Shown: in pieces, positions 28,935-45,886 of the stretch
Layout: each line of letters opens with the position of its first letter
Numbering within the stretch: the stretch's first letter is position 1
DNA from: Fimbriimonadaceae bacterium
Lineage (GTDB): Bacteria; Armatimonadota; Fimbriimonadia; Fimbriimonadales; Fimbriimonadaceae
Direction: 5' to 3'
Length of the DNA stretch: 64,000 nucleotides
NCBI GenBank assembly: GCA_019638795.1
Contig: JAHBTB010000001.1
Span: 310,001 to 374,000 of the forward strand
Position numbers and translations under genes: made by a program
Notes under the pieces: generated by a model
What the model was told of the DNA's origin: nothing
Databases searched by the model: none
Seen by the model: only the letters and a program-made list of their open reading frames with translations

Positions 28935-29310
28935 AGGTTTCTCGGTCGTCGAGGTCGTCATCGCCACCGTCCTCATCGTGGTCGGGGTCACCGCCTTGAT
29001 GCGGGCGATGGGCGGGCTCGACAAAGCCACCGCCGCGCTCATGGAGAAAGACAAGGTCACCCGCCTGGCGAACCAAAAGCTGGACGAGATCATCGCGACC
29101 GAGGAATACAAGACGGCGACCCAAGGCACCTTTGACGTTCCTGACGACAAGTACACGTGGACGCTGGAAAACGTCGCGACCGGCGTGGAGAGTCTTGTCG
29201 GGCTTCGCATCACCGTCGCCGACTCGACCCGTCCCAACGGCCGGACGGGCGTGGCGGAGACCCTCAAGTACGAACCACCCACCACGACCGACGCGGGGGC
29301 CGCGCCATGA
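28912..29310 (+). CDS. gspI: minor pseudopilin, GspI-like
   Basis: 132 aa, start TTG 28912 with GGAGG 13 bases upstream; 23-base overlap with gspH. Prepilin motif RTRG-FSVVEVVIATVLIVVGVTALMRAM and the family's LANQKLDEIIA stretch after the helix. GspI starts the pseudopilus tip complex with J and K. Confidence 0.82.
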   Translation: MNSASRTRGFSVVEVVIATVLIVVGVTALMRAMGGLDKATAALMEKDKVTRLANQKLDEIIATEEYKTATQGTFDVPDDKYTWTLENVATGVESLVGLRITVADSTRPNGRTGVAETLKYEPPTTTDAGAAP

Positions 29311-30005
29311 GACGACGAGGCTTCACCGTCATCGAGCTTCTGATGGTGATGGTCATGACGGCGACCCTGATGATCGGCCTGACCACCGTGTTCAGCAGCG
29401 CCTTGGCGACCTTGCGGAGGGCTCCCGACCTCGACCAGAAATTGGAGCAAGGCCGCCGGTTTGAGAAGCGGGTGACCCAGTTTCTCAGGGGCGCCTACGT
29501 CACCGCGGACAACGCGGACACGCTGACTTATTTTGTCGCGTCGAACCAGAGCGGCTCGACGTCGAAGCCGGACACGATCGTCTTCACCACCACCTCGGCC
29601 CCGCTGAACATGGCCGCGATCGACGACACCGAGCACGACTGGCAACAAAAGAACGAAGAGTACGGGCCCCAGGGCGGGCTCACCGAGGTCTCTTTGTCGC
29701 TGACCGCAGTCGGGTCGGACGCCACGGGCTCGGGGCTCTACCTCCGCACCCAGAGGCCGGCGGACGGCGACCCGACCCAGGGCGGTTACGAGTCCCTGTT
29801 GCTGGCTGGCGTCACGGACATCTCCTTTGAGTTCTGGGACGGGACGGAATGGACCGACACCTGGGACACCACCACCGGCGTCCGGCGCCTGCCCGCGGTC
29901 GTCCGCATCACATACACCCTTGACGGGGAGACGGACAGCCGCGTGATGACGGTGCGTCTGGAGCAGAGCGACGTCACCTCGACCAACCCGGTGGTGCAAC
30001 TGTGA
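29307..30005 (+). CDS. gspJ: minor pseudopilin, GspJ-like
   Basis: 232 aa, ATG overlapping the gspI stop. Prepilin motif RRRG-FTVIELLMVMVMTATLMIGL; larger head, as in GspJ, with the conserved late segment GVTDISFEFWDGTEWTDTW and RLPAVVRITYTLD. Confidence 0.87.
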   Translation: MRRRGFTVIELLMVMVMTATLMIGLTTVFSSALATLRRAPDLDQKLEQGRRFEKRVTQFLRGAYVTADNADTLTYFVASNQSGSTSKPDTIVFTTTSAPLNMAAIDDTEHDWQQKNEEYGPQGGLTEVSLSLTAVGSDATGSGLYLRTQRPADGDPTQGGYESLLLAGVTDISFEFWDGTEWTDTWDTTTGVRRLPAVVRITYTLDGETDSRVMTVRLEQSDVTSTNPVVQL

Positions 30006-31246
30006 GGCCGCGGCGGAGCGGCGTGGCCTTCCTGATGGCCCTGCTCGTCGTCGTGGTCGCAGTGATCATCGTCTCGTCCGTCGGCGCCGCCGTCGGGTCG
30101 AAGATCTTGCGGGAGAGCACCCAGAACGAGGCGGCCGCGGCCGAAGCCGCCGCCCGGGGCGGCATTGAACGGGCCCTCGCCGCCCTCAGCAACCAGTCAC
30201 TGACGGTGACGACCCAAGAGGACGACTGGTACACCCTGAGCCAGAACGGGGCCGTCGACTTCACTGTCGGCAGTGCCCACGTCCGCATCCAGATCGTCGA
30301 CGCTTGCAGCAAGGTCGACATCAACACGGTGACGTCGGACTGGCTCCTGAACATGGGCCTGACCCAAGACCAGATCGACGCGATCATCGACTGGCGTTCG
30401 TCGGGGCCGACGCCCAGCGCCCAAGGGGCCAAAGACGAGTTCTACAACAGCCTGCCCGTCCCCTACAACACCAAGCTGCGCCGGTTCGACACCTTCGACG
30501 AACTCCTCTTGGTCAAGGGTGTCGACGCCCAGACCCTGTACGAACCGCCGACCAACGGCAGCAGCGCCCCGCTGGTCTCCGGGGTCGACACCGACCAACC
30601 GACCCTCTACGACCTTTGCACGTTTGAGAACCGGGCCACCGTCCAGAACCCGAGCGGGCAGTCGCGCACCAATGTCAACACGGCGAACGAACAACAGCTT
30701 GTCAGCCTCGGCCTACGCGCCCAAATCGCCACCGCCATCGTCCAGCGCCGCAACACGGTCAGCACGTTCACTAACTTGGGCGAGGTGTTCCAGGTGGCCG
30801 GGATCAACAACGCCGATGCCAAAGTCATCTTGGATAACCTCACGACCAACAACAGCCCGACGGCAGAGGGAAAGATCAACTTGAACACCGCCACCGAACC
30901 GGTGCTCAATTCCATCCCGAACATGCCCGCCGGGGTGGCCCAGGCGATCATCTCGCGCGGTGGGCAATTTAACTCACTTGGTGAACTTGCGGACCTCCCT
31001 GGCGTCACTCCCCAGACTTTGCGCGACATTGCGGACACGTTCACCGTCTCCAGCCAGTCGTTCCTTGTCCGGACCGTCGGCAGGGCCGGTTCGTCGCGCG
31101 TCGCCCTCGAGGCCCTCGTCGAATTCACCAACGGGCAACCCGTGGTCACCCGGGTCGTGCACCCGTGGTTCAGCGACGCTGAACGGCGGTGGGGGTGGGT
31201 CGACGAGACCACGTCCCAGACGACTCTGATGGAGGCGGCCCGATGA
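30002..31246 (+). CDS. gspK: minor pseudopilin GspK
   Basis: 414 aa, start GTG 30002. N-terminus RRSG-VAFLMALLVVVVAVIIV, a prepilin site without Glu at +5, as expected for GspK, the tip protein. Helix-hairpin-helix-like repeats recur (DINTVTSDWLLNMGLT, NVNTANEQQLVSLG, NLNTATEPVLNSIP), more of them than in classical GspK. Stop overlaps gspL. Confidence 0.88.
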   Translation: MRPRRSGVAFLMALLVVVVAVIIVSSVGAAVGSKILRESTQNEAAAAEAAARGGIERALAALSNQSLTVTTQEDDWYTLSQNGAVDFTVGSAHVRIQIVDACSKVDINTVTSDWLLNMGLTQDQIDAIIDWRSSGPTPSAQGAKDEFYNSLPVPYNTKLRRFDTFDELLLVKGVDAQTLYEPPTNGSSAPLVSGVDTDQPTLYDLCTFENRATVQNPSGQSRTNVNTANEQQLVSLGLRAQIATAIVQRRNTVSTFTNLGEVFQVAGINNADAKVILDNLTTNNSPTAEGKINLNTATEPVLNSIPNMPAGVAQAIISRGGQFNSLGELADLPGVTPQTLRDIADTFTVSSQSFLVRTVGRAGSSRVALEALVEFTNGQPVVTRVVHPWFSDAERRWGWVDETTSQTTLMEAAR

Positions 31247-32496
31247 GCACGGTCGATGTCGTCCCCGTCCTTGAATGGTCAGGCGGCGCCGTGCGCGCCT
31301 TCGACCCGGTGCGCCACCAAACTTTCCTCGCCGAGAGCTTCGAAGACGCCATCACGACCTTGGGCAACCCCAAGACCGTCGGTCTGGCGATCGGCCGCCG
31401 GTCGTCGCTCGTCCGCCAACTCGTCCTGCCCGACGTCGGGGCCGAGCAAGCGCAGGCGATCGTCCGGGTACAACTTGACCAGCTCTTCCCTGTCTCGTCC
31501 GCCGAGCTCACCAGCGACTTCGCTTTCACCAACCGCCAGAACGGGACGGGAAAGAAGGTCGTCGTCTCCGCGATGCGTACCGAGCTGCTGAAGCAGGCCA
31601 AGGACGAACTGGCCCGCCTCGGCGTCCAGACCGCCTGGATCGCCCCGGTGAGCGCGGCGTCTGGCGGGATGGCCTTGGAGCACGGTCTTGACAGTGCGGT
31701 CATCATCGACGACTCTGTAGACGGCACCGGGATCGACATTGTTCAGAACGGCGACGTGTATTACTCCCGGTCCGCACCGGGCGGACTGGGCGAGCACGAA
31801 CTGGAGATGGAGGTCCAGCGCACCTTGGCCAGCGCCAAGGTTCCGCCGAGCACACTTGTGCGGGCCGACCAGAACGGCAGTCTCGCCACCCTCGCCCGCC
31901 ACCGGCCTGCCGTCAACCTTGAGTTGTGGGAGGACGTCAGCAAGCGCAGGGCCCAAGCGGTCAAGAGCCGCCGGACACTGGCCAGCTTGCTCGTCATGGT
32001 GTTCATTGTCTGTTGCGCGATGGTCTACTTCGATTTCGAAGACGCCGCCAAGCGGGTGAAGAAGAACACCGACTCGGGAGCCCGCCAGATCAAGACCTTG
32101 ACCACGAACAAGGGGCTCCTGGACGGTCGCTTGCACCTGGTGAAAAACGCCGCCGACACCCTGGAGTCCTCGGCGCACCCCAAACAGCCCGTCTCCGACA
32201 TCGTCTCCGTCGTCGCCGGCCACTGCCCCGCCGACCTCTGGCTGACGGGCCTGACCGTCGAGCGCGGACGCAACGTCCAGATCCGGGGGGACGCCAAGTC
32301 TAGTGCCGCGGTCTACGAGTTCATGCAGGCGCTGACCAGCGACCCGAGGTTCCGTGACGTCCGCCTTGTCTTTGCCAACGACGGCAAGATCGGCGAGACG
32401 CCGATCGTCCTCTTTGCCGCCACGGGACATGTGGTCGGCAACTATCCGACCTATATCCCGTCTGCCGTCAAGCCCAAGGCAGGAGCGAAGAAATGA
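31243..32496 (+). CDS. gspL: GspL-like assembly protein (PilM-like part fused to PilN-like part)
   Basis: 417 aa from ATG 31243 (overlap with gspK stop). Residues 1-~240 look like the actin-like cytoplasmic domain of GspL/PilM (VGLAIGRRSSLVRQLVLPD). One membrane helix follows (~LASLLVMVFIVCCAMVYF), then a short coiled coil and a PilN-type periplasmic domain (PADLWLTGLTVERGRNVQIRG, VYEFMQALTSDPRFRDVRL). So one protein covers both PilM and PilN roles, as GspL does in T2SS. Confidence 0.82.
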   Translation: MSTVDVVPVLEWSGGAVRAFDPVRHQTFLAESFEDAITTLGNPKTVGLAIGRRSSLVRQLVLPDVGAEQAQAIVRVQLDQLFPVSSAELTSDFAFTNRQNGTGKKVVVSAMRTELLKQAKDELARLGVQTAWIAPVSAASGGMALEHGLDSAVIIDDSVDGTGIDIVQNGDVYYSRSAPGGLGEHELEMEVQRTLASAKVPPSTLVRADQNGSLATLARHRPAVNLELWEDVSKRRAQAVKSRRTLASLLVMVFIVCCAMVYFDFEDAAKRVKKNTDSGARQIKTLTTNKGLLDGRLHLVKNAADTLESSAHPKQPVSDIVSVVAGHCPADLWLTGLTVERGRNVQIRGDAKSSAAVYEFMQALTSDPRFRDVRLVFANDGKIGETPIVLFAATGHVVGNYPTYIPSAVKPKAGAKK

Positions 32497-33068
32497 CCAT
32501 CGGTGACAACATCCCGACCTGGAACTTTGTCTGCGGCCTCGCCATCGCCGGAGTGATCGGATGCGTCATCTTCGACCGTGTCGCCCCCCGGCCCAAGACC
32601 GGTCTTGCCCTCGCCAAGCAAGCCAAGCAGCAGGCCGACCTCACCAACCAGATCACGGGCCTCAAGGCTGACTTGGACAAAGCCCAGAAGGCGATGGGCA
32701 GTTACGCGTGGGCCAGCCCGGTGGCCGACGTCGGCCCCGCTGTGCTCGACCGGGTCAACCGAGCCGCGGCGGCGCGCAAGGTGAAGGTGAGCACGTTCCG
32801 GCCCCAGCGGGTGCAAGAAGTGACCCCGCTCAAGGCGGCTGAGTACTCCGTGAGCGTCCAGGGTCCGTTCTTGGCCGTGGTCTCGTTCGTCAAAGACTTG
32901 GAGGCACCCGGCACCAAGCTCGTCGTCTCGTCCGCCCAGGTCAGTTCGACCGACGCCTCGTCCAGCGCGGTCTCCGCTTCGGTCGGCGTCGTCGCCTTTG
33001 TCAACGAACCTGAGGTTCCCAAGGCCAAGGCAAAGGCACCGCAGGGGGTGAACAATGGCAAAGGGTAA
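32493..33068 (+). CDS. gspM: GspM/PilO-like assembly protein
   Basis: 191 aa. Short N-terminal cytoplasmic part, one membrane helix (FVCGLAIAGVIGCVIF), a coiled coil (LAKQAKQQADLTNQITGLKADLDKAQ), then a ferredoxin-like PilO/GspM domain (VSVQGPFLAVVSFVKDLEA). Assigned by structure and place after gspL. ATGA overlap with gspL, 14-base overlap with the next gene. Confidence 0.78.
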   Translation: MTIGDNIPTWNFVCGLAIAGVIGCVIFDRVAPRPKTGLALAKQAKQQADLTNQITGLKADLDKAQKAMGSYAWASPVADVGPAVLDRVNRAAAARKVKVSTFRPQRVQEVTPLKAAEYSVSVQGPFLAVVSFVKDLEAPGTKLVVSSAQVSSTDASSSAVSASVGVVAFVNEPEVPKAKAKAPQGVNNGKG

Positions 33069-33855
33069 CCGTTTGTACTTGTATGGGGGTTTAGCCCTGG
33101 TGGTTGTCGCAGCCTTGATCCTGACTGAGCCTCAAAAGGTCCAGCGGCCGCCGCGCAAGTCGGCAGCCGTGACCCGGCCTGTCAAAACCGACAAGGCCTT
33201 GGAGGACTTCGACGAGCGGGACCAGAAGGCCACCTTCGAACCGGTCGCGCTCACAACCCGCGACGCGTTCAAGCCGCTTGTCGTCCGGGGCGAAGGCGTC
33301 GGCCCAGACAGTGCCGGACTCCCCAACCAGGTGCCGCCTTCCTTCGCCAGCGGCGAGGCCGGGTGGTTCTTCACCGGTGCCGCCGTCATCGACCAGGTGC
33401 CGACGGCGCTGATCGAGAACACCCAGACGGGCCAGGGACTTTATGTCAAGCAAGGCGACCTCTGGAAGAACTGCCGCGTCGAGCGCATCACCCCGACGAG
33501 CTTGTCCCTGGCGGCGGGCGACAGCGTCCGAACCCTGATGTTGCTCGCGGACGTCCCCCAACCGGAACCGAGCGGGGGGTCGACCCGGCCGCTGAACCCG
33601 TTGACCGGCCCGGTCGGGGTGCAGTCGCGACCGAACCCTCTGCCGGGGAACGTCCCGGCCCAACCGAACAACGGCCAGGTCAACGGCGGCCGGCCCACGG
33701 ACCCACGCCGGTCCGGTCGGCGCGGCAACGGACAGCCCGCCGAGCCGTTCGGACCCCAAGGCGGGCCTCAGGGAGAGCCGGGCCCGTTCGACGAATTCGA
33801 CCTGAACATCCCGACCCACGACGACCAGAACTTGAAGCACGAGGCAAACCTATGA
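33055..33855 (+). CDS. GspC/PilP-like inner-membrane linker protein
   Basis: 266 aa, ATG 33055 with a strong AGGGGGTG ribosome site. One N-terminal membrane helix (YLYGGLALVVVAALILT), a proline-rich spacer, then a small beta domain (GWFFTGAAVIDQVPTALIEN, YVKQGDLWKNCRVERITPTSLSLAA) like the homology region of GspC or PilP, which binds the secretin N0 domain. The last ~85 residues are disordered, rich in P, G, N and R. Placement directly before gspD supports the role; sequence identity alone would not. Confidence 0.65.
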   Translation: MAKGNRLYLYGGLALVVVAALILTEPQKVQRPPRKSAAVTRPVKTDKALEDFDERDQKATFEPVALTTRDAFKPLVVRGEGVGPDSAGLPNQVPPSFASGEAGWFFTGAAVIDQVPTALIENTQTGQGLYVKQGDLWKNCRVERITPTSLSLAAGDSVRTLMLLADVPQPEPSGGSTRPLNPLTGPVGVQSRPNPLPGNVPAQPNNGQVNGGRPTDPRRSGRRGNGQPAEPFGPQGGPQGEPGPFDEFDLNIPTHDDQNLKHEANL

Positions 33856-36260
33856 GACTGAAGCGCACGTTGACCTGGACGGTTCTGATCGCCGCCGTCC
33901 TCCCGACCGCCGTATTCGCCCAGTTCAGCAACGGCGACGGGGTGGCCGCCAAGAAGGCTTGGGAGCAATTCAGCCTGCCCAAGACCAAAAAGGTGACCCT
34001 GAGCTTCCGCAACGCCAACGTCGACCTGGTGCTGGACCTCTTCATGAAGATCTCTGGCATCACGATCGTCAAAGACCCCGCGCTCAAGGACGCCATCACG
34101 GTCTCTTCGCCCAACCCGGTCTCGGTCAGCGACGCCTTCCGCATCCTCGACACCGCCCTCAGCCTGCGCAATTTCGAATTGCAGAAGGAGGGCAACCTCA
34201 TGGTGATCCGTCAGAAGCGCCAACGCCAAGAGATGGACCGGGGCTCCGACTTTGGCCAGGGCAACTTCGACCCCAGCCAGTTCCAACAGCAACAAAACGA
34301 GGTCAAGGTCTACCGGATCAAGTACGCAAACGCCAGCGAGGTGGCCCGGGTGGTCAACGACGTCTTTGCCCCGACCCAGCAAGGTGGCTTTGGTGGTTTC
34401 AATCGGGGCAACTTCGGTCGCGGCGGCCTCACCCAGTTCGGCCGCCCTCAGGGCCGAGGCAACAACCGGTTTGGTGGGTTCAGCGGGTTCAACACGGGCC
34501 AGCAAGACTCCATGCGGGCGTCGTCGGACGATTACAGCAACACCGTCATCATCAACGGCCCGCGCAACATGTTCGATGAGATCGAGAAGCTGATCAAAGA
34601 AATCGACCAACAGACCGACGCGCCGCAGACCACCCAGGTCTACAAGCTGGAGTTCGCCTCGGCCAACGACATCCTGCCGACGATCCAAAACGTCTTGAGC
34701 ACGAACGCGCCCAAGGGCCGGGGCGGCCAAGGCAACCAGACCATCGACCCCCGGCAGCAGTTCCGCCAGGCGTTTCGGACCGGGTCGTTCCAATCGGCCT
34801 TCGGCACCGTCACCGCGGACGTCCGGTCAAACAGCCTCGTCGTGACGGCGACGGCCGAAAACCACAAAGTCGTCGCCCAGGTGATCTCCGAGATCGACCA
34901 AAAGGTGCGGCTGGAAGACTCCACCGTCGTCATCCCCTTGATGAACGCCCGGGCGGACCAATTGGCGACGACCTTGCAGTCGGCGTTCGGCCAACGCACC
35001 GGCGTCAACACCTCGCGTAACACGACGGGCACCGGGTCGAACAGCAACCGCCGGACAAACAACAATAACAACCGGAACTCCAGCGGCCCGCCGAGCCTTG
35101 GCGGCAACAACCTGGGCAACGACTTGGCCGACGCGACAGCCCTCAACATCCCGCTTCAAGACCCTGACGCGGAAAGCGGTGAACTGCAAACGCAGATCCA
35201 GTTTGGAGGCGGCGGATTCGGCGGGGGCGGGTTCCGCGGCGGGCAGAACAACCAAAACCAGAACAACCAACTGGTGCGCGGCGCCGACGGGCGGCTCGTC
35301 AACATCCGTGACCTGACCAACCAAGTGTCGATCATCCCCGACACCAACACGAACAGTCTGATCGTCGTCGGTGCCCCCGACGCGGTGGACCTGGTCAAGA
35401 AAATCCTTCTCCAACTCGACTCGATCCCCGAGCAGGTGATGATCGAGACGATCATCATGGAGGCGACCCTGGACCGGACGAACAAGCTCGGTGTCGAGTG
35501 GAACTTGGTCCAAGCCAAGGCCTTCGGCCAAAACGGGGTCACCGGCAACGTCGGTGCCAACTTCGGCCTGCAGAACACCTCCCCGGCACTGCAAGGGTTC
35601 CGCTATACGATTGCGGGCGGCAACTTGGGTGGGTTCTTGAACGCCCTCCAGCAGGACGACAAGTTTGAAGTCCTCAGCACGCCGCGCATCTTCACGAGCA
35701 ACAACGTGGAGGCCGAGATCAACATCAGCCAGAGCATCCCTTACGTCGTCAGCCAACGGGAAGACGCGAACGGCAACCTGACCTTCAACTATTCGTTCGT
35801 CGATGTGGGCATCATCCTGACCGTGACGCCTCGGATCACCGCAGGCGGCTACGTGACCCTGGACGTGACCCAGACCGCCAACGACCTCCAAGGCTACACG
35901 GAGTTCAACGCGCCGATCATCAACCAACGCGAAGCCCAGACCACCGTGAGCGTGAAGGACGGGGAGACGATGGTCCTCGGCGGCATCATGCGCAACACCG
36001 TCACCTCGTCGGTCCGCAAGGTGCCCTTGCTCGGCGACATCCCCATCCTCGGCCAGTTGTTCCGGTCGACAAGCCACGAAAAGCAGAAGACCGAGCTCCT
36101 TGTCATGCTGACGCCGCGCATCGTGCGCAGCCCCGACGACGCCGCCAAGATCCGCGAGAAAGCCCTCAAGGAGAACGGCAAGACGCTTCCCAACACGATC
36201 ACGACCCCGGACCCCGCCCCCAAGAAGGACGAGGCCAAGAAAGACGGGGGAGGAAACTGA
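33852..36260 (+). CDS. gspD: type II secretion secretin GspD
   Basis: 802 aa from ATG 33852 (signal peptide MRLKRTLTWTVLIAAVLPTAVFA); longer upstream readings are the shadow frame of the previous gene. Order: N0/STN-like domain (VTLSFRNANVDLVLDLFMKI), several N-domains (VYRIKYANASEVARVVNDVF; VYKLEFASANDILPTIQNVL; VVIPLMNARADQLATTLQSAF), interrupted by long G/N/Q/R-rich loops, then the secretin barrel (FVDVGIILTVTPRITAGGYV; KVPLLGDIPILGQLF; ELLVMLTPRIV). Forms the outer-membrane gate. Tail is Lys/Asp-rich. Confidence 0.95.
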   Translation: MRLKRTLTWTVLIAAVLPTAVFAQFSNGDGVAAKKAWEQFSLPKTKKVTLSFRNANVDLVLDLFMKISGITIVKDPALKDAITVSSPNPVSVSDAFRILDTALSLRNFELQKEGNLMVIRQKRQRQEMDRGSDFGQGNFDPSQFQQQQNEVKVYRIKYANASEVARVVNDVFAPTQQGGFGGFNRGNFGRGGLTQFGRPQGRGNNRFGGFSGFNTGQQDSMRASSDDYSNTVIINGPRNMFDEIEKLIKEIDQQTDAPQTTQVYKLEFASANDILPTIQNVLSTNAPKGRGGQGNQTIDPRQQFRQAFRTGSFQSAFGTVTADVRSNSLVVTATAENHKVVAQVISEIDQKVRLEDSTVVIPLMNARADQLATTLQSAFGQRTGVNTSRNTTGTGSNSNRRTNNNNNRNSSGPPSLGGNNLGNDLADATALNIPLQDPDAESGELQTQIQFGGGGFGGGGFRGGQNNQNQNNQLVRGADGRLVNIRDLTNQVSIIPDTNTNSLIVVGAPDAVDLVKKILLQLDSIPEQVMIETIIMEATLDRTNKLGVEWNLVQAKAFGQNGVTGNVGANFGLQNTSPALQGFRYTIAGGNLGGFLNALQQDDKFEVLSTPRIFTSNNVEAEINISQSIPYVVSQREDANGNLTFNYSFVDVGIILTVTPRITAGGYVTLDVTQTANDLQGYTEFNAPIINQREAQTTVSVKDGETMVLGGIMRNTVTSSVRKVPLLGDIPILGQLFRSTSHEKQKTELLVMLTPRIVRSPDDAAKIREKALKENGKTLPNTITTPDPAPKKDEAKKDGGGN

Positions 36261-41449: not shown

Positions 41450-43522
41450 TCAGGGAGGCGGCACCCGGCCGGGCCTGCCCCGCTGCCGGACCTGGACGTT
41501 TTGACTCAGCTTCGCAAACGTCCGGTCATATTCGTCGCGGACGCCCTGGGGCAGGCCCTCGAAGGCCGTCACCTCGCTCCCGCCGATGGGCTCGTAGTCG
41601 GTCAGCAGGCGGGACATCGTGTATTGGCCCGCGAAGGAAAGGGTGACCATCACCCGACGCCTCGACATCAACTGGTACTTCGTGTCGGCCGAAGGCTTGT
41701 CGACGGCCCCTGGCCGTGTCTCGGCGACCGCCCTCGTCGCGGCGAGCTCTCGCGGCGAGTAGACCTGGGCGCGGTCCACCAACGGGTCCAGCACTCGCAA
41801 GACGTTCTCGGCGCTGTTCGTCACGAGGACCTGCGTCTGAGCGGGGACGGCACTAAAGACGTCGGTGCGTTCGAACGACCCGCCAGAGTTCGCCTGGAAC
41901 TGCATGGCGTTGCCCGACCGGCCGGCCCGGAACGTCAGCTCCAGGGTCTGCGCCCGACGGGGCTGGCCGGACTTTTGCGGCCCGTCCGAACTCCAGAACA
42001 GGAGGTCGGCCACCGGCCCGACCGCACTGCCGACCGGGAAGGCGGCCCGAGGCTGGTTGCGCCCGTTCACCGGCAACGACCCATAGACTAACATCGCCTC
42101 GCGGTTGGAACCCCGTGTTTCAAGGAACTGTGACCGAAGCGTGTTGCCGCCAAGGGCCTGGGCATACGCGGTGTCCCACGAGTTCTCCGTGAGGGAGGGC
42201 GACGCCTGGGCATAGGGGACCAAGGCGTCCAAGGATGCGACACCCAAATGGCGTGACGAGTCCACCACCCGCTTGAACGCGGCCCGGTCGAGCCGGTGCC
42301 CCAAGTCACGGGTGATGTCCACCGGCCGCGCAGCGGCCCAACCGTCCTTCTCTTCCCACTCGTAACCGTCCCGCGACACGGCGTCTCGGACGGCGGCCAC
42401 CGAGGCGTCTTTGTCGAACAGGACCTGCCGCACGGTCTCGAAGAGTTCGTCGCTCAGGAGGGCCACCGCCGGTTTGTCGGCCGGCATGGTCTGCCGCACC
42501 GCCTCCCCGACAAAGAAGCTGAGCGGGTCACGCGCCACCGGGTCGAGCATGAGGGAGGCGGCAGACTGGTCGACCTCCAGGTCGTCGGCCGGGAGCAACC
42601 TTGCCGACTCGAACCGCTGGAGACCAATGACGATCGCCTTGTCACCACCGCGGGCCTGGCGCCTCGTCCCCACCATCAGCCGCGCCTCGTCCGAAAGCTT
42701 GACCTTGGCCGCGGAGTCCCCCGCCCCCGATTCCGGAGCGGGTGTGGCCACGACTGCCGTGGACCCAAAGAGGAGCTGGTCGCCGGCCTGGTCAACCACC
42801 CGGACCGAGGCGGTGAGGACCGGGCTCCAGCCCGGTCGTTGGACCACAAGGTACGCCTTGGCATAGGTGCCCGTCCGCAGGCTCTCGTACCGCCGTTGGG
42901 CGGCACGGTCATTGGGCCGTGGCGCCGGGGTGGCCGCCAACTGGTCGGCCATCGCTTGGCGCACCGCGGTCAGGGCAGGTCCGGGCAAGGCGACCTGGAC
43001 TCCGAAGGGCATGTTGGTGAAGACCACCCTGGCCCCCGGCGCGACCCTCGCCAGGGTGGCGGGAGGGACTTGGGACAGCACATGGGCGACGGCCCTTTGG
43101 GCGTCGCGCCAACGGGACGACCGCCCGCCTTGTTGGGGACTGGCCCCAGCTGGGGCCAACATCTTGTCGACCGCGTCCTTGAAGGCCGAGGTCTCCCGGG
43201 CGATCCTCGCGTTCACCGCGTTCTTTTGCTCGGTGTCCCGAAGCAGCAACTGGTACGACTCCCCGGACTTGGCCCATTCCGCGTGCATCACCCAGGCAAG
43301 TCGCGACATCAGTTCGTCGGCGGGGACTCCGTCGACGTCGACCAGCACGACTTCTTTGCCCAACTGGCTCGTGACACGGAGGTCGGTCTGGGTCAGGCCC
43401 CTCAGCTGTCGGACGACCTCGGCGACCGTCGTACCGTTGGTGTGCAGGCTCACCGGGGCCTTCAGGCCCGGGGCTGGGGCCACCGTCGCAACGAGCACCA
43501 GCGCGACTAATTGGATACCCAT
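41450..43522 (-). CDS. large secreted protein, STN-like N-terminus, paralogue B
   Basis: 690 aa from ATG 43522 with signal peptide (GIQLVALVLVATVAPAPG). An STN/secretin-N-like segment follows (TTVAEVVRQLRGLTQTDLRV, GKEVVLVDVDGVPADELMSR). Then ~550 residues of unrecognised sequence, co-linear with the gene just upstream (43631-45886): VGEAVRQTMPADKPAVALLS, AYLVVQRPGW, MSRRRVMVTLSFAGQYTMSR. No catalytic motif or membrane segment is visible. Same strand as leuS, 50 bases upstream of it. Probably periplasmic or outer-membrane associated; function unknown. Confidence 0.75.
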   Translation of the reverse strand: MGIQLVALVLVATVAPAPGLKAPVSLHTNGTTVAEVVRQLRGLTQTDLRVTSQLGKEVVLVDVDGVPADELMSRLAWVMHAEWAKSGESYQLLLRDTEQKNAVNARIARETSAFKDAVDKMLAPAGASPQQGGRSSRWRDAQRAVAHVLSQVPPATLARVAPGARVVFTNMPFGVQVALPGPALTAVRQAMADQLAATPAPRPNDRAAQRRYESLRTGTYAKAYLVVQRPGWSPVLTASVRVVDQAGDQLLFGSTAVVATPAPESGAGDSAAKVKLSDEARLMVGTRRQARGGDKAIVIGLQRFESARLLPADDLEVDQSAASLMLDPVARDPLSFFVGEAVRQTMPADKPAVALLSDELFETVRQVLFDKDASVAAVRDAVSRDGYEWEEKDGWAAARPVDITRDLGHRLDRAAFKRVVDSSRHLGVASLDALVPYAQASPSLTENSWDTAYAQALGGNTLRSQFLETRGSNREAMLVYGSLPVNGRNQPRAAFPVGSAVGPVADLLFWSSDGPQKSGQPRRAQTLELTFRAGRSGNAMQFQANSGGSFERTDVFSAVPAQTQVLVTNSAENVLRVLDPLVDRAQVYSPRELAATRAVAETRPGAVDKPSADTKYQLMSRRRVMVTLSFAGQYTMSRLLTDYEPIGGSEVTAFEGLPQGVRDEYDRTFAKLSQNVQVRQRGRPGRVPPP

Positions 43523-43630
43523 ATCAATTCTGACGCCCGGGCGCACCACGCATTCCGTGGGGCACGGGCTCCCTTACCCATGGTGGACGTGTCCGCCGGG
43601 TCAAAGTTCAGAAGTCACCGCAACGACGGG

Positions 43631-45886
43631 TCAGGGTTGCGGTGGACGGACTCGCCCACCTGATTCGTCGAAGTGGACTTGGGCCTTGCTGTACATCTCC
43701 TTGGCGCGTTTGTACGAGGCGGCGATGCGGTCTTGGAGCTCCAGCGGAAGCTCGTTCCACGACACCAGCTTGGACTGGGCCTGCGGAGCGTAGTCGCTCA
43801 GGGAACGGGTCATCTGGTACCGCCCGCTGAAGTTGACCTGCATGTTCACCCGACGGCGCGAGAGGACCTGCACCTTCTTGCCTTCACCCACCGAGTCGCC
43901 CACGTACTGCCCCCATGACTGCTCGCTCATCGCCCGGTAGTCGCCGACTTGGTCGGGGCCCATGATCTGCGACTGGCCCGTCTTGGGGTCGTAGACGCGC
44001 AGGACGGTGTCTTCCTTCCCGTCCAACACCAATCCGGTGGGCGGGACGCCGACAAAGACGTCGGTCCGCTCGAAGGCGGGGCCAAACAGGTCCGAAGCGT
44101 CGGGTAGGTCCGGATTGGGGAACGAAGACGTCACCGAAACAGCCATGTTGACGTTTCGTGGGCCGCCCCGGCGGAACGGCTTCGGCCCGTCATGGCTACG
44201 GAAGACGAGGCTGGAAATGTCCCCGGTGTCCAGCCCACCCGGGGCCAATGTCCGCCCGTTGGCCCGCCGTTGCCCCTCGGGCAACCGAGCGTAGATCCGT
44301 AGGGCTTCGCGCAAGCGGCCACGGGTGTCCACGACTTCGTCGCCCGCCGCCGACCCGTATAGGGCGCTTGCGTAAGTCTGGTCCCACAAGGGCTCGTTGG
44401 TTTCCGGGGACGTCAAGGCGTACCGGGCCACAGAGTCCAGCGGTGCGGCCCCGATCGCCGCCGTCGCGTCGAGGAGGGCCTTGAACTCCTTCCGGTCGAC
44501 GCGGTGCTTCTGGCACCGGTCAATGTCAAGCGGTTTCGCGACCTGCCACCCGTCCTTGTCGATGAACTCATAGCCGGCGTCGACAAGCGTCTTCGCCACC
44601 TGTCCTGTCGTGGCCGTCCCCCCCGCCACGACCGTGCGGATTTTTTCAAAGAGCTCGTCACTGAGGAGCGCGACCACCGGCCGGTCGGCGGGCATCACTT
44701 GCCGCACTGACTCACCGACAAAGTACGAAAGCGGCTCATGGGCGACAGGGTCGCGCATGAACCCCGCCGCCTTCCCGGCGGTGAGTTTGTTCGGGCCGGC
44801 GCTGGTGAAGGTCGCCCCGTCGTCGTCGCTCGTCCGGGCGACAAAGATGACGTCCATGACTTGCGCGCCTCCGTGCACCGGCGAGATGTCAGCGAGGTTC
44901 TTGGCGTCCTCGGAGAGCTCGACCTTCTTTCCCTCGGCCTCGGGCTTTTCGGCTTGTTGCACACCGTGGCCTGCCCCCGCCAAATCCAACCCCCGGGCCA
45001 AGGTGAACTCAGGCACACCGTCCGGGCCCAGCATCGTCGTCGCACTGACCATTCGTTCGCCTCGGGGGTCGACGACCGTGAACGTGGCGACAAAGTTTGG
45101 GTCCCATCCATTGCGGCGCACCACCAAGTACGCCTTGCCGTAGACCCCACGGCGGAGCGCCGCGAGCGACCGGTCGACCTTGTCGGGCCCGATGACGACC
45201 TGCGACCGTCCTCCTGTGCCCGCCTCGGCGGCCTTGAGCTCGTCAGCGATGGCCCTGCGGACCTCGGCGTCGGCGTTGCCCGGAATGGGCAGCTGCACCC
45301 CGGTCGGAGACGTGGCGAAGACGACCCGTCCTCCGGGGGCGATGGAGGCAAGGGTCAGCGGTGAAATGCCCGACAGGATGCGGGCCAGTTGTTTCTGGCC
45401 GGCCGTCGAACCGCCGGCGGACAGGAAGACTTGGGACACCCCTTCGTCCGAGACGATGCGGGGCCCCTCGCCCGGCGGTGGCGGCGTGAACGGCTCGTCG
45501 GGCTTGATCTGACCGACCATTTTGGCCAGTGCCTTCTTGACGGTGAGCGCGTCCGTGGCGGTCCGTTGGCTCACCGCCTTCCGGAGGGCCGTGTCACGGA
45601 CGAGGAGTTGGTACATCGAGTCGGACTTCACCCACTCACCCCCCACCGCCGCGGCCAGCTTGGCCATCAGGTCGGACGCCTTGACGCCGTCGGCGTCGAT
45701 CAAGACCACCTCCTTCCCTACGACTCCGGTGACGCGGAGGTCCGCTTTCGTCTCGGCGCGCAACTTGGCGACGACATCGGCGACCGACATACCCGTGGTC
45801 TTGAACGTGACCGCCTTGTCCAGATCCTGGGCCCAAGCCGCCGTCGTCGCCGCCAGGGCCACCAATGCAAGCGTCGTCGTCCTCAT
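43631..45886 (-). CDS. large secreted protein, STN-like N-terminus, paralogue A
   Basis: 751 aa from ATG 45886, which has GGAG 7 bases upstream (GTG 45898 also in frame). Signal peptide RTTTLALVALAATTAAWAQ. STN-like region: MSVADVVAKLRAETKADLRV, GKEVVLIDADGVKASDLMAK. The body matches paralogue B along most of its length: VGESVRQVMPADRPVVALLS, AYLVVRRNGW, LSRRRVNMQVNFSGRYQMTR. It carries an extra ~60 residues, including PPPPGEG and GAGHGVQQAEKPEAEGKK. 108 bases separate it from B. No known family recognised outside the STN-like part. Confidence 0.75.
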   Translation of the reverse strand: MRTTTLALVALAATTAAWAQDLDKAVTFKTTGMSVADVVAKLRAETKADLRVTGVVGKEVVLIDADGVKASDLMAKLAAAVGGEWVKSDSMYQLLVRDTALRKAVSQRTATDALTVKKALAKMVGQIKPDEPFTPPPPGEGPRIVSDEGVSQVFLSAGGSTAGQKQLARILSGISPLTLASIAPGGRVVFATSPTGVQLPIPGNADAEVRRAIADELKAAEAGTGGRSQVVIGPDKVDRSLAALRRGVYGKAYLVVRRNGWDPNFVATFTVVDPRGERMVSATTMLGPDGVPEFTLARGLDLAGAGHGVQQAEKPEAEGKKVELSEDAKNLADISPVHGGAQVMDVIFVARTSDDDGATFTSAGPNKLTAGKAAGFMRDPVAHEPLSYFVGESVRQVMPADRPVVALLSDELFEKIRTVVAGGTATTGQVAKTLVDAGYEFIDKDGWQVAKPLDIDRCQKHRVDRKEFKALLDATAAIGAAPLDSVARYALTSPETNEPLWDQTYASALYGSAAGDEVVDTRGRLREALRIYARLPEGQRRANGRTLAPGGLDTGDISSLVFRSHDGPKPFRRGGPRNVNMAVSVTSSFPNPDLPDASDLFGPAFERTDVFVGVPPTGLVLDGKEDTVLRVYDPKTGQSQIMGPDQVGDYRAMSEQSWGQYVGDSVGEGKKVQVLSRRRVNMQVNFSGRYQMTRSLSDYAPQAQSKLVSWNELPLELQDRIAASYKRAKEMYSKAQVHFDESGGRVRPPQP

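Follow-up and report, generated by a model that had tools for sequence, protein, structure and literature searches.

The gene pair and its products

The window (the whole stretch of 64,000 nucleotides that was analysed) carries two adjacent genes for secreted proteins on its minus strand. Gene A (43631..45886, minus strand) encodes an STN-body protein of 751 amino acids, assigned from its open reading frame, its paralogy with B and a strong match to the family profile. Gene B (41450..43522, minus strand) encodes an STN-body protein of 690 amino acids, assigned from its open reading frame and as a paralogue of A. Positions and lengths of both genes agree with the first-pass annotation of this DNA. 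B lies 108 bp downstream of A and about 50 bp upstream of leuS, and the pair is flanked by leuS on the minus strand and, on its other side, by the divergently oriented rluD on the plus strand. An operon of the type II secretion / type IV pilus kind, comprising T2SS J, T2SS K, PilN, PilO and a secretin, is located at 29157-36260 (plus strand).

Alignment of A and B displays 36-40% identity across nearly the full length (E 5e-129 to 6e-115). The proposed paralogy thus extends beyond the N-terminus: the proteins are homologous throughout, and the reservation that the similarity might end with the front part did not materialize. In a FastTree phylogeny, A pairs with a relative from genome G001 (55% identity) and B comes next; because A pairs with the G001 relative, the duplication is probably older than the split between the window's species (genome G000) and that of G001.

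Signal peptides were assigned by eye and from hydropathy. A starts with a type I signal peptide as read by eye (MRTTTLALVALAATTAAWA; 45830..45886, minus strand), and the signal peptide of B is less clear. A lipobox cysteine, a trait of the DotD / VirB7 N0 lipoproteins, is absent from the N-termini of A and B, as are a cytoplasmic anti-sigma domain and a transmembrane helix, both proteins starting with a signal peptide. The C-terminal tails, delimited from a count of PP across the family, end in GGRVRPPQP in A (43634..43681, minus strand) and in GRPGRVPPP in B (41453..41500, minus strand). PP occurs within the last 7 residues of 42 of 68 family members and of 3 of 125 other secreted-type genes, the relatives in this count not being independent of one another. 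Frequent C-termini in the family are PP(P)x or IxP, commonly preceded by a glycine-rich stretch.

Fold and modules

The suggestion of an STN-like front end is borne out by structure prediction. The STN domain of A (residues 25-97; 45596..45814, minus strand), delimited by comparing an AlphaFold2 model (model residues 26-98) with PDB folds, is closest to the STN subdomain of PupR (Z 9.7, rmsd 1.6, 73 residues), followed by EscC (Z 9.6) and the N0 domain of PilQ (Z 9.5); PilQ N0 was also matched by a sequence profile (E 0.006). The STN domain of B (residues ~22-95; 43238..43459, minus strand) was placed by gapless alignment to A. The Pfam STN model PF07660 does not match A or B even at E 1; it matches one of 21 relatives (E 0.0094) and one of 10 distant relatives (E 2e-6).

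Modelling of A with 21 sequences (pTM 0.80) returned the STN fold and a mixed, barrel-free body, and modelling of the body alone with 82 sequences reached a pTM of 0.87 and a pLDDT of 83. The body has no match among Pfam, NCBIfam and PDB sequences. Its fold has none in the PDB with E < 0.001 in Foldseek or with Z >= 5 in VIA, and none among viral structures. Profile searches thus place the body in no characterized family, and the description of the family as undescribed holds within the libraries searched.

The earlier statement that the body resembles nothing known stands for these database searches and has to be modified for one region: the block VGE.VRQ.MPAD.P.VALLSDELFE very probably belongs to a second, diverged STN-like module. 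It covers residues ~385-455 of A (44522..44734, minus strand; containing VGESVRQVMPADRPVVALLSDELFE), as located by a chain of profile matches, and residues ~332-402 of B (42317..42529, minus strand), as located by alignment to the module of A. This assignment is based on the profile chain via distant homologues and on controls that fail to match. The window-type internal segment matches the internal segment of distant homologues (E 1.6e-6), which in turn matches their N-terminal STN (E 2.4e-8 and 3e-7). The controls, with columns shuffled or reversed or with windows placed outside both STN regions, gave no match. When the N-terminal and internal modules of the window-type proteins are compared with each other directly, the result is not significant (probability 0.5-1.7), and Pfam scans of internal modules on their own did not match STN.

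Behind this segment lies a helical module (A residues ~460-562; 44201..44509, minus strand), which is conserved phylum-wide (E 3.8e-13 versus distant homologues). A profile was built from ten distant proteins, of which one comes from a genome of the same order (G041) and nine come from outside it; this profile matches window-type bodies over A residues ~388-562 (E 3e-18).

Neither secretin nor TonB receptor

The absence of both a secretin and a TonB barrel, as noted in the first reading of the sequence, is supported by Pfam and by the barrel-free models. Identity as a secretin was rejected, as A and B have no PF00263 match and no barrel is apparent in the models; identity as a TonB-dependent transducer of the FecA or PupB kind was rejected as well, as neither protein has a Pfam plug or barrel match. 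The plug domain PF07715 was not found across the whole G000 genome, and the FecR domain PF04773 was found neither in A and B nor in that genome. Signalling through FecR in G000 was rejected on these two absences.

Distribution and neighbourhoods of the family

A and B belong to an unnamed family that is spread across Armatimonadota. Of the 85 genomes in the window's GTDB family, 80 contain strong matches to the family profile (E 3e-30 or better), related genomes in such counts not being independent of one another. Among the others, G010 and G022 have weak matches, the one in G010 sitting inside a secretin-bearing reading frame, and G020, G029 and G157 have none. The profile of the ten distant proteins matches in 201 of 291 Armatimonadota genomes. 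No match was found in the plasmids searched.

The window's genome (2.7 Mb) holds three family copies. Near the third one, an ECF sigma gene, a short TM-type protein and a secreted-type protein stand in a row (L055:13787-15910), an order that resembles rpoE-rseA-rseB; the TM-type and secreted-type proteins have no Pfam match. Elsewhere the family forms tandem arrays of seven (L058), six (L060) and five (L059) genes. Recurrent neighbourhoods are rluD/leuS (the window's type), carB/surE, purB and a PMT-type gene; some neighbouring gene products were named from sequence by eye, and in the relatives genes and their starts were called manually, guided by start codons and GC composition. A sigma gene is lacking next to most family genes, among them those in tandem arrays of up to seven.

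Fused forms and a membrane partner

Outside the window's GTDB family, the STN-body module occurs in fusion with anti-sigma-type proteins. In G070 (L145), a single frame of 871 amino acids comprises a zf-HC2 domain (E 3.8e-5), a hydrophobic stretch (transmembrane), an STN domain and a body, and the gene immediately preceding it encodes an ECF sigma factor (Sigma70_r2, E 8e-19). The same layout behind an ECF sigma gene is found in G098 (L152), with an H..C..C zinc-finger-like motif that has no Pfam match, and in G068 (L149), with no zinc finger; a similar fusion in G211 (L164) also has no zinc finger. In G079 (L119:3653-6240), the anti-sigma zinc-finger part is read in another frame than the STN-body part; this apparent frameshift may be an assembly error or a broken gene. 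The bodies of the fusions match window-type bodies with E 1.5e-13 over 342 columns. A split arrangement is seen in G220 (L181), a genome of another GTDB family, in the order family gene, ECF sigma gene, zf-HC2 protein.

Within the window's GTDB family, a membrane protein of about 260 amino acids consists of an N-terminal domain, a hydrophobic stretch (starting at residue 74-84 in 41/41) and a periplasmic STN, which matches the STN of the family (E 3e-12). The cytoplasmic domain of this partner has no Pfam match. Of 51 genomes of this GTDB family, 47 have the partner, usually as a single copy, and its gene stands behind an ECF sigma gene in all 40 fetched loci. In 8/40 of these loci the gene immediately upstream of the sigma gene belongs to the family; this is not a blind rate, because the loci were mostly chosen down the match list and a few (G015, G008 and G032) were picked knowing that a family gene is nearby. 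Two further loci, met from the family side (L100, L122), have the same order of family gene, sigma gene and partner, bringing the arrangement to 8 genera in all, and L104 has a divergent order. The operon-borne family genes are spread over at least two clades, in a tree rich in long branches. Partner and family do not always occur together: G010 and G020 carry the partner but not the family, and in G014 the family is present and no partner was matched.

In the window's genome, which has 18 sigma-70 region 2 matches, the partner gene is located at C1:501863-502597, in the order PMT, ECF sigma, partner near 503 kb (L219). In G013 and G017 the order is PMT, family gene, sigma, partner; the orthologous G000 locus has the same order minus the family gene. 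The segment L219:7813-10583 holds the PMT-type gene, the ECF sigma gene and the STN membrane protein, with an ECF-type motif before the sigma gene.

A motif upstream of the sigma genes

In 25 of 39 loci, G000 included, the start of the sigma match is preceded at 28-86 nt by the motif GTAAC-N15..18-CGTC, which has the form of ECF promoters. It has 35 matches in total, these 25 included, on both strands of about 1.03 million bases. The motif was found by enumeration on the same sequences, against five mononucleotide shuffles, and is for this reason a discovered pattern rather than an independent test. In three loci (L231, L233, L257) it begins at the last base of the family gene's reading frame, overlapping the stop codon. 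It occurs upstream of 0/101 family genes tested, so that family genes are not targets of the sigma factor by this motif.

In G000 the motif has 10 matches, all on one strand, versus 4 for the reversed pattern; since the reversed pattern gives 4, some of the 10 are chance matches. Two of them (L266, L267) precede the starts of secreted-type proteins by 20 and 64 nt; one of these two proteins has a weak PPC match.

Proposed function and alternatives

It has been described that anti-sigma factors and the transducers of cell-surface signalling bind to each other via their STN domains, and STN cell-surface signalling itself is familiar from the TonB-dependent transducers that serve iron uptake (PMC11637429). 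The fusions and neighbours of the present family, involving membrane regulators, suggest envelope-to-gene signalling without the usual outer-membrane receptor. Based on this dataset, we hypothesize that A and B are secreted, presumably periplasmic, soluble members of a family whose STN-body module acts on an ECF sigma/anti-sigma pathway from its periplasmic side, a reading to which we assign a probability of roughly one half. Of the two roles initially considered, signalling is supported by the anti-sigma fusions and the operons with ECF sigma factors. The periplasmic STN of the membrane partner is a third line of evidence that ties the family to such signalling, and the absence of plug and FecR matches from G000 also speaks for the proposed reading.

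In some lineages, an anti-sigma-type N-terminus, a transmembrane helix and the STN-body module form one fused protein. In the window's GTDB family, the halves are split into a membrane protein and one or more secreted STN-body proteins. The membrane half, presumably an anti-sigma factor, consists of a cytoplasmic N-domain, one transmembrane helix and a periplasmic STN, its gene overlapping that of the ECF sigma factor, and a secreted STN-body gene sometimes shares the operon with both. Secreted proteins may dock STN-to-STN on the membrane partner, as PupB does on PupR, and docking would control the stability of the partner, as RseB does for RseA; an envelope signal, putatively sensed by the body, would thereby alter sigma-dependent transcription. 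The existence of both fused and split forms suggests a transducer role for the secreted STN-body proteins that needs no barrel, perhaps as an RseB-like soluble partner.

The link to sigma is weakest for the window pair, because it is detached from the sigma locus: the sigma/partner locus of G000 has no family gene, and A and B stand beside rluD and leuS instead, which speaks against the proposed circuit. Further points against it are the uneven occurrence of family and partner in G010, G020 and G014, the lack of a sigma gene next to most family genes, the missing motif upstream of all 101 family genes tested, and the partner's cytoplasmic domain having no Pfam match. We consider it most likely that the pair represents detached, secreted partners of the circuit, presumably serving it. 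This detachment would also be expected if the proteins are periplasmic binding or scaffolding proteins, in which the STN is a mere interaction module and the link to sigma is confined to fused and operon-borne relatives. High sequence divergence fits such a role as well, since invariant residues are few and inspection by eye reveals no obvious catalytic set; the fusion to anti-sigma-type proteins and the occurrence of two or more separate family clades in sigma operons argue against it, and we regard it as rather improbable. The secreted proteins might instead be outputs, that is, envelope proteins belonging to sigma regulons, in which case the shared neighbourhood would reflect co-regulation and not signalling. 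The large number of paralogues and the tandem arrays, a pattern as in abundant envelope proteins, and the operon neighbourhood with sigma are in line with this. However, fusion to an anti-sigma-type protein puts the STN-body module on the input side, and the sigma motif, where found, is placed at the end of the family gene or beyond it and in no case upstream of the 101 tested; we regard an output role as unlikely.

The other possibility raised initially is a role in envelope assembly. A further alternative is that A and B are periplasmic adaptors of secretins in type II secretion or type IV pili, with their own STN docking on N0. A secretin is present in 37/37 relatives, PilQ N0 is among the nearest matches in both sequence and fold, and the secretin-bearing operon is 5 kb away from the pair. 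On the other hand, G010 and G020, which have no full-length family match, keep 4 and 3 secretin matches, and among the fetched loci of the rluD/leuS type a nearby secretin recurs in the same genus only (L062). The secretin neighbourhood was accordingly rejected as a functional link, envelope assembly finds no support, and we hold an adaptor role to be improbable.

Returning to the proposed sigma/anti-sigma pathway, a tentative and rather doubtful extension would be a phylum-wide, TonB-receptor-free form of cell-surface signalling, in which soluble, secreted transducers with two STN-like modules, present as many paralogues per genome, convey various envelope signals to one conserved pair of ECF sigma factor and STN anti-sigma factor. 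If the proposed pathway holds, the same STN-to-STN logic operates with no receptor in the outer membrane, in a phylum where next to no genetics exists, and a large unnamed family with strong matches in 80 of the 85 genomes of a single GTDB family would be explained.

Comparison with known systems

The N-terminal module shares its fold with the N0 domain of secretins (PilQ, GspD, EscC; Z 9.5-9.6 for PilQ and EscC), whereas A and B have no secretin barrel. Anti-sigma factors of the zf-HC2 type resemble the relative L145 in its N-terminal zf-HC2 domain and transmembrane stretch; in contrast, A and B have a signal peptide where zinc finger and transmembrane helix would be. RseA-RseB/sigma E is similar to the proposed circuit in that a soluble periplasmic protein acts on the membrane-bound anti-sigma factor belonging to an ECF sigma factor. 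An STN domain is absent from RseB and no sequence relation to it was found, so that the likeness concerns the working principle only.

FecA-FecR-FecI and PupB-PupR-PupI likewise combine an ECF sigma factor with a membrane protein whose STN is periplasmic and with an outer component that also carries an STN; in the present family the three are co-encoded in some genomes, and PupR provides the nearest STN fold to A. The present system differs from them in having no TonB barrel or plug and no FecR domain. Its STN component is soluble and carries an unrelated body with a second STN-like module, and its gene order is component, sigma factor, membrane protein.
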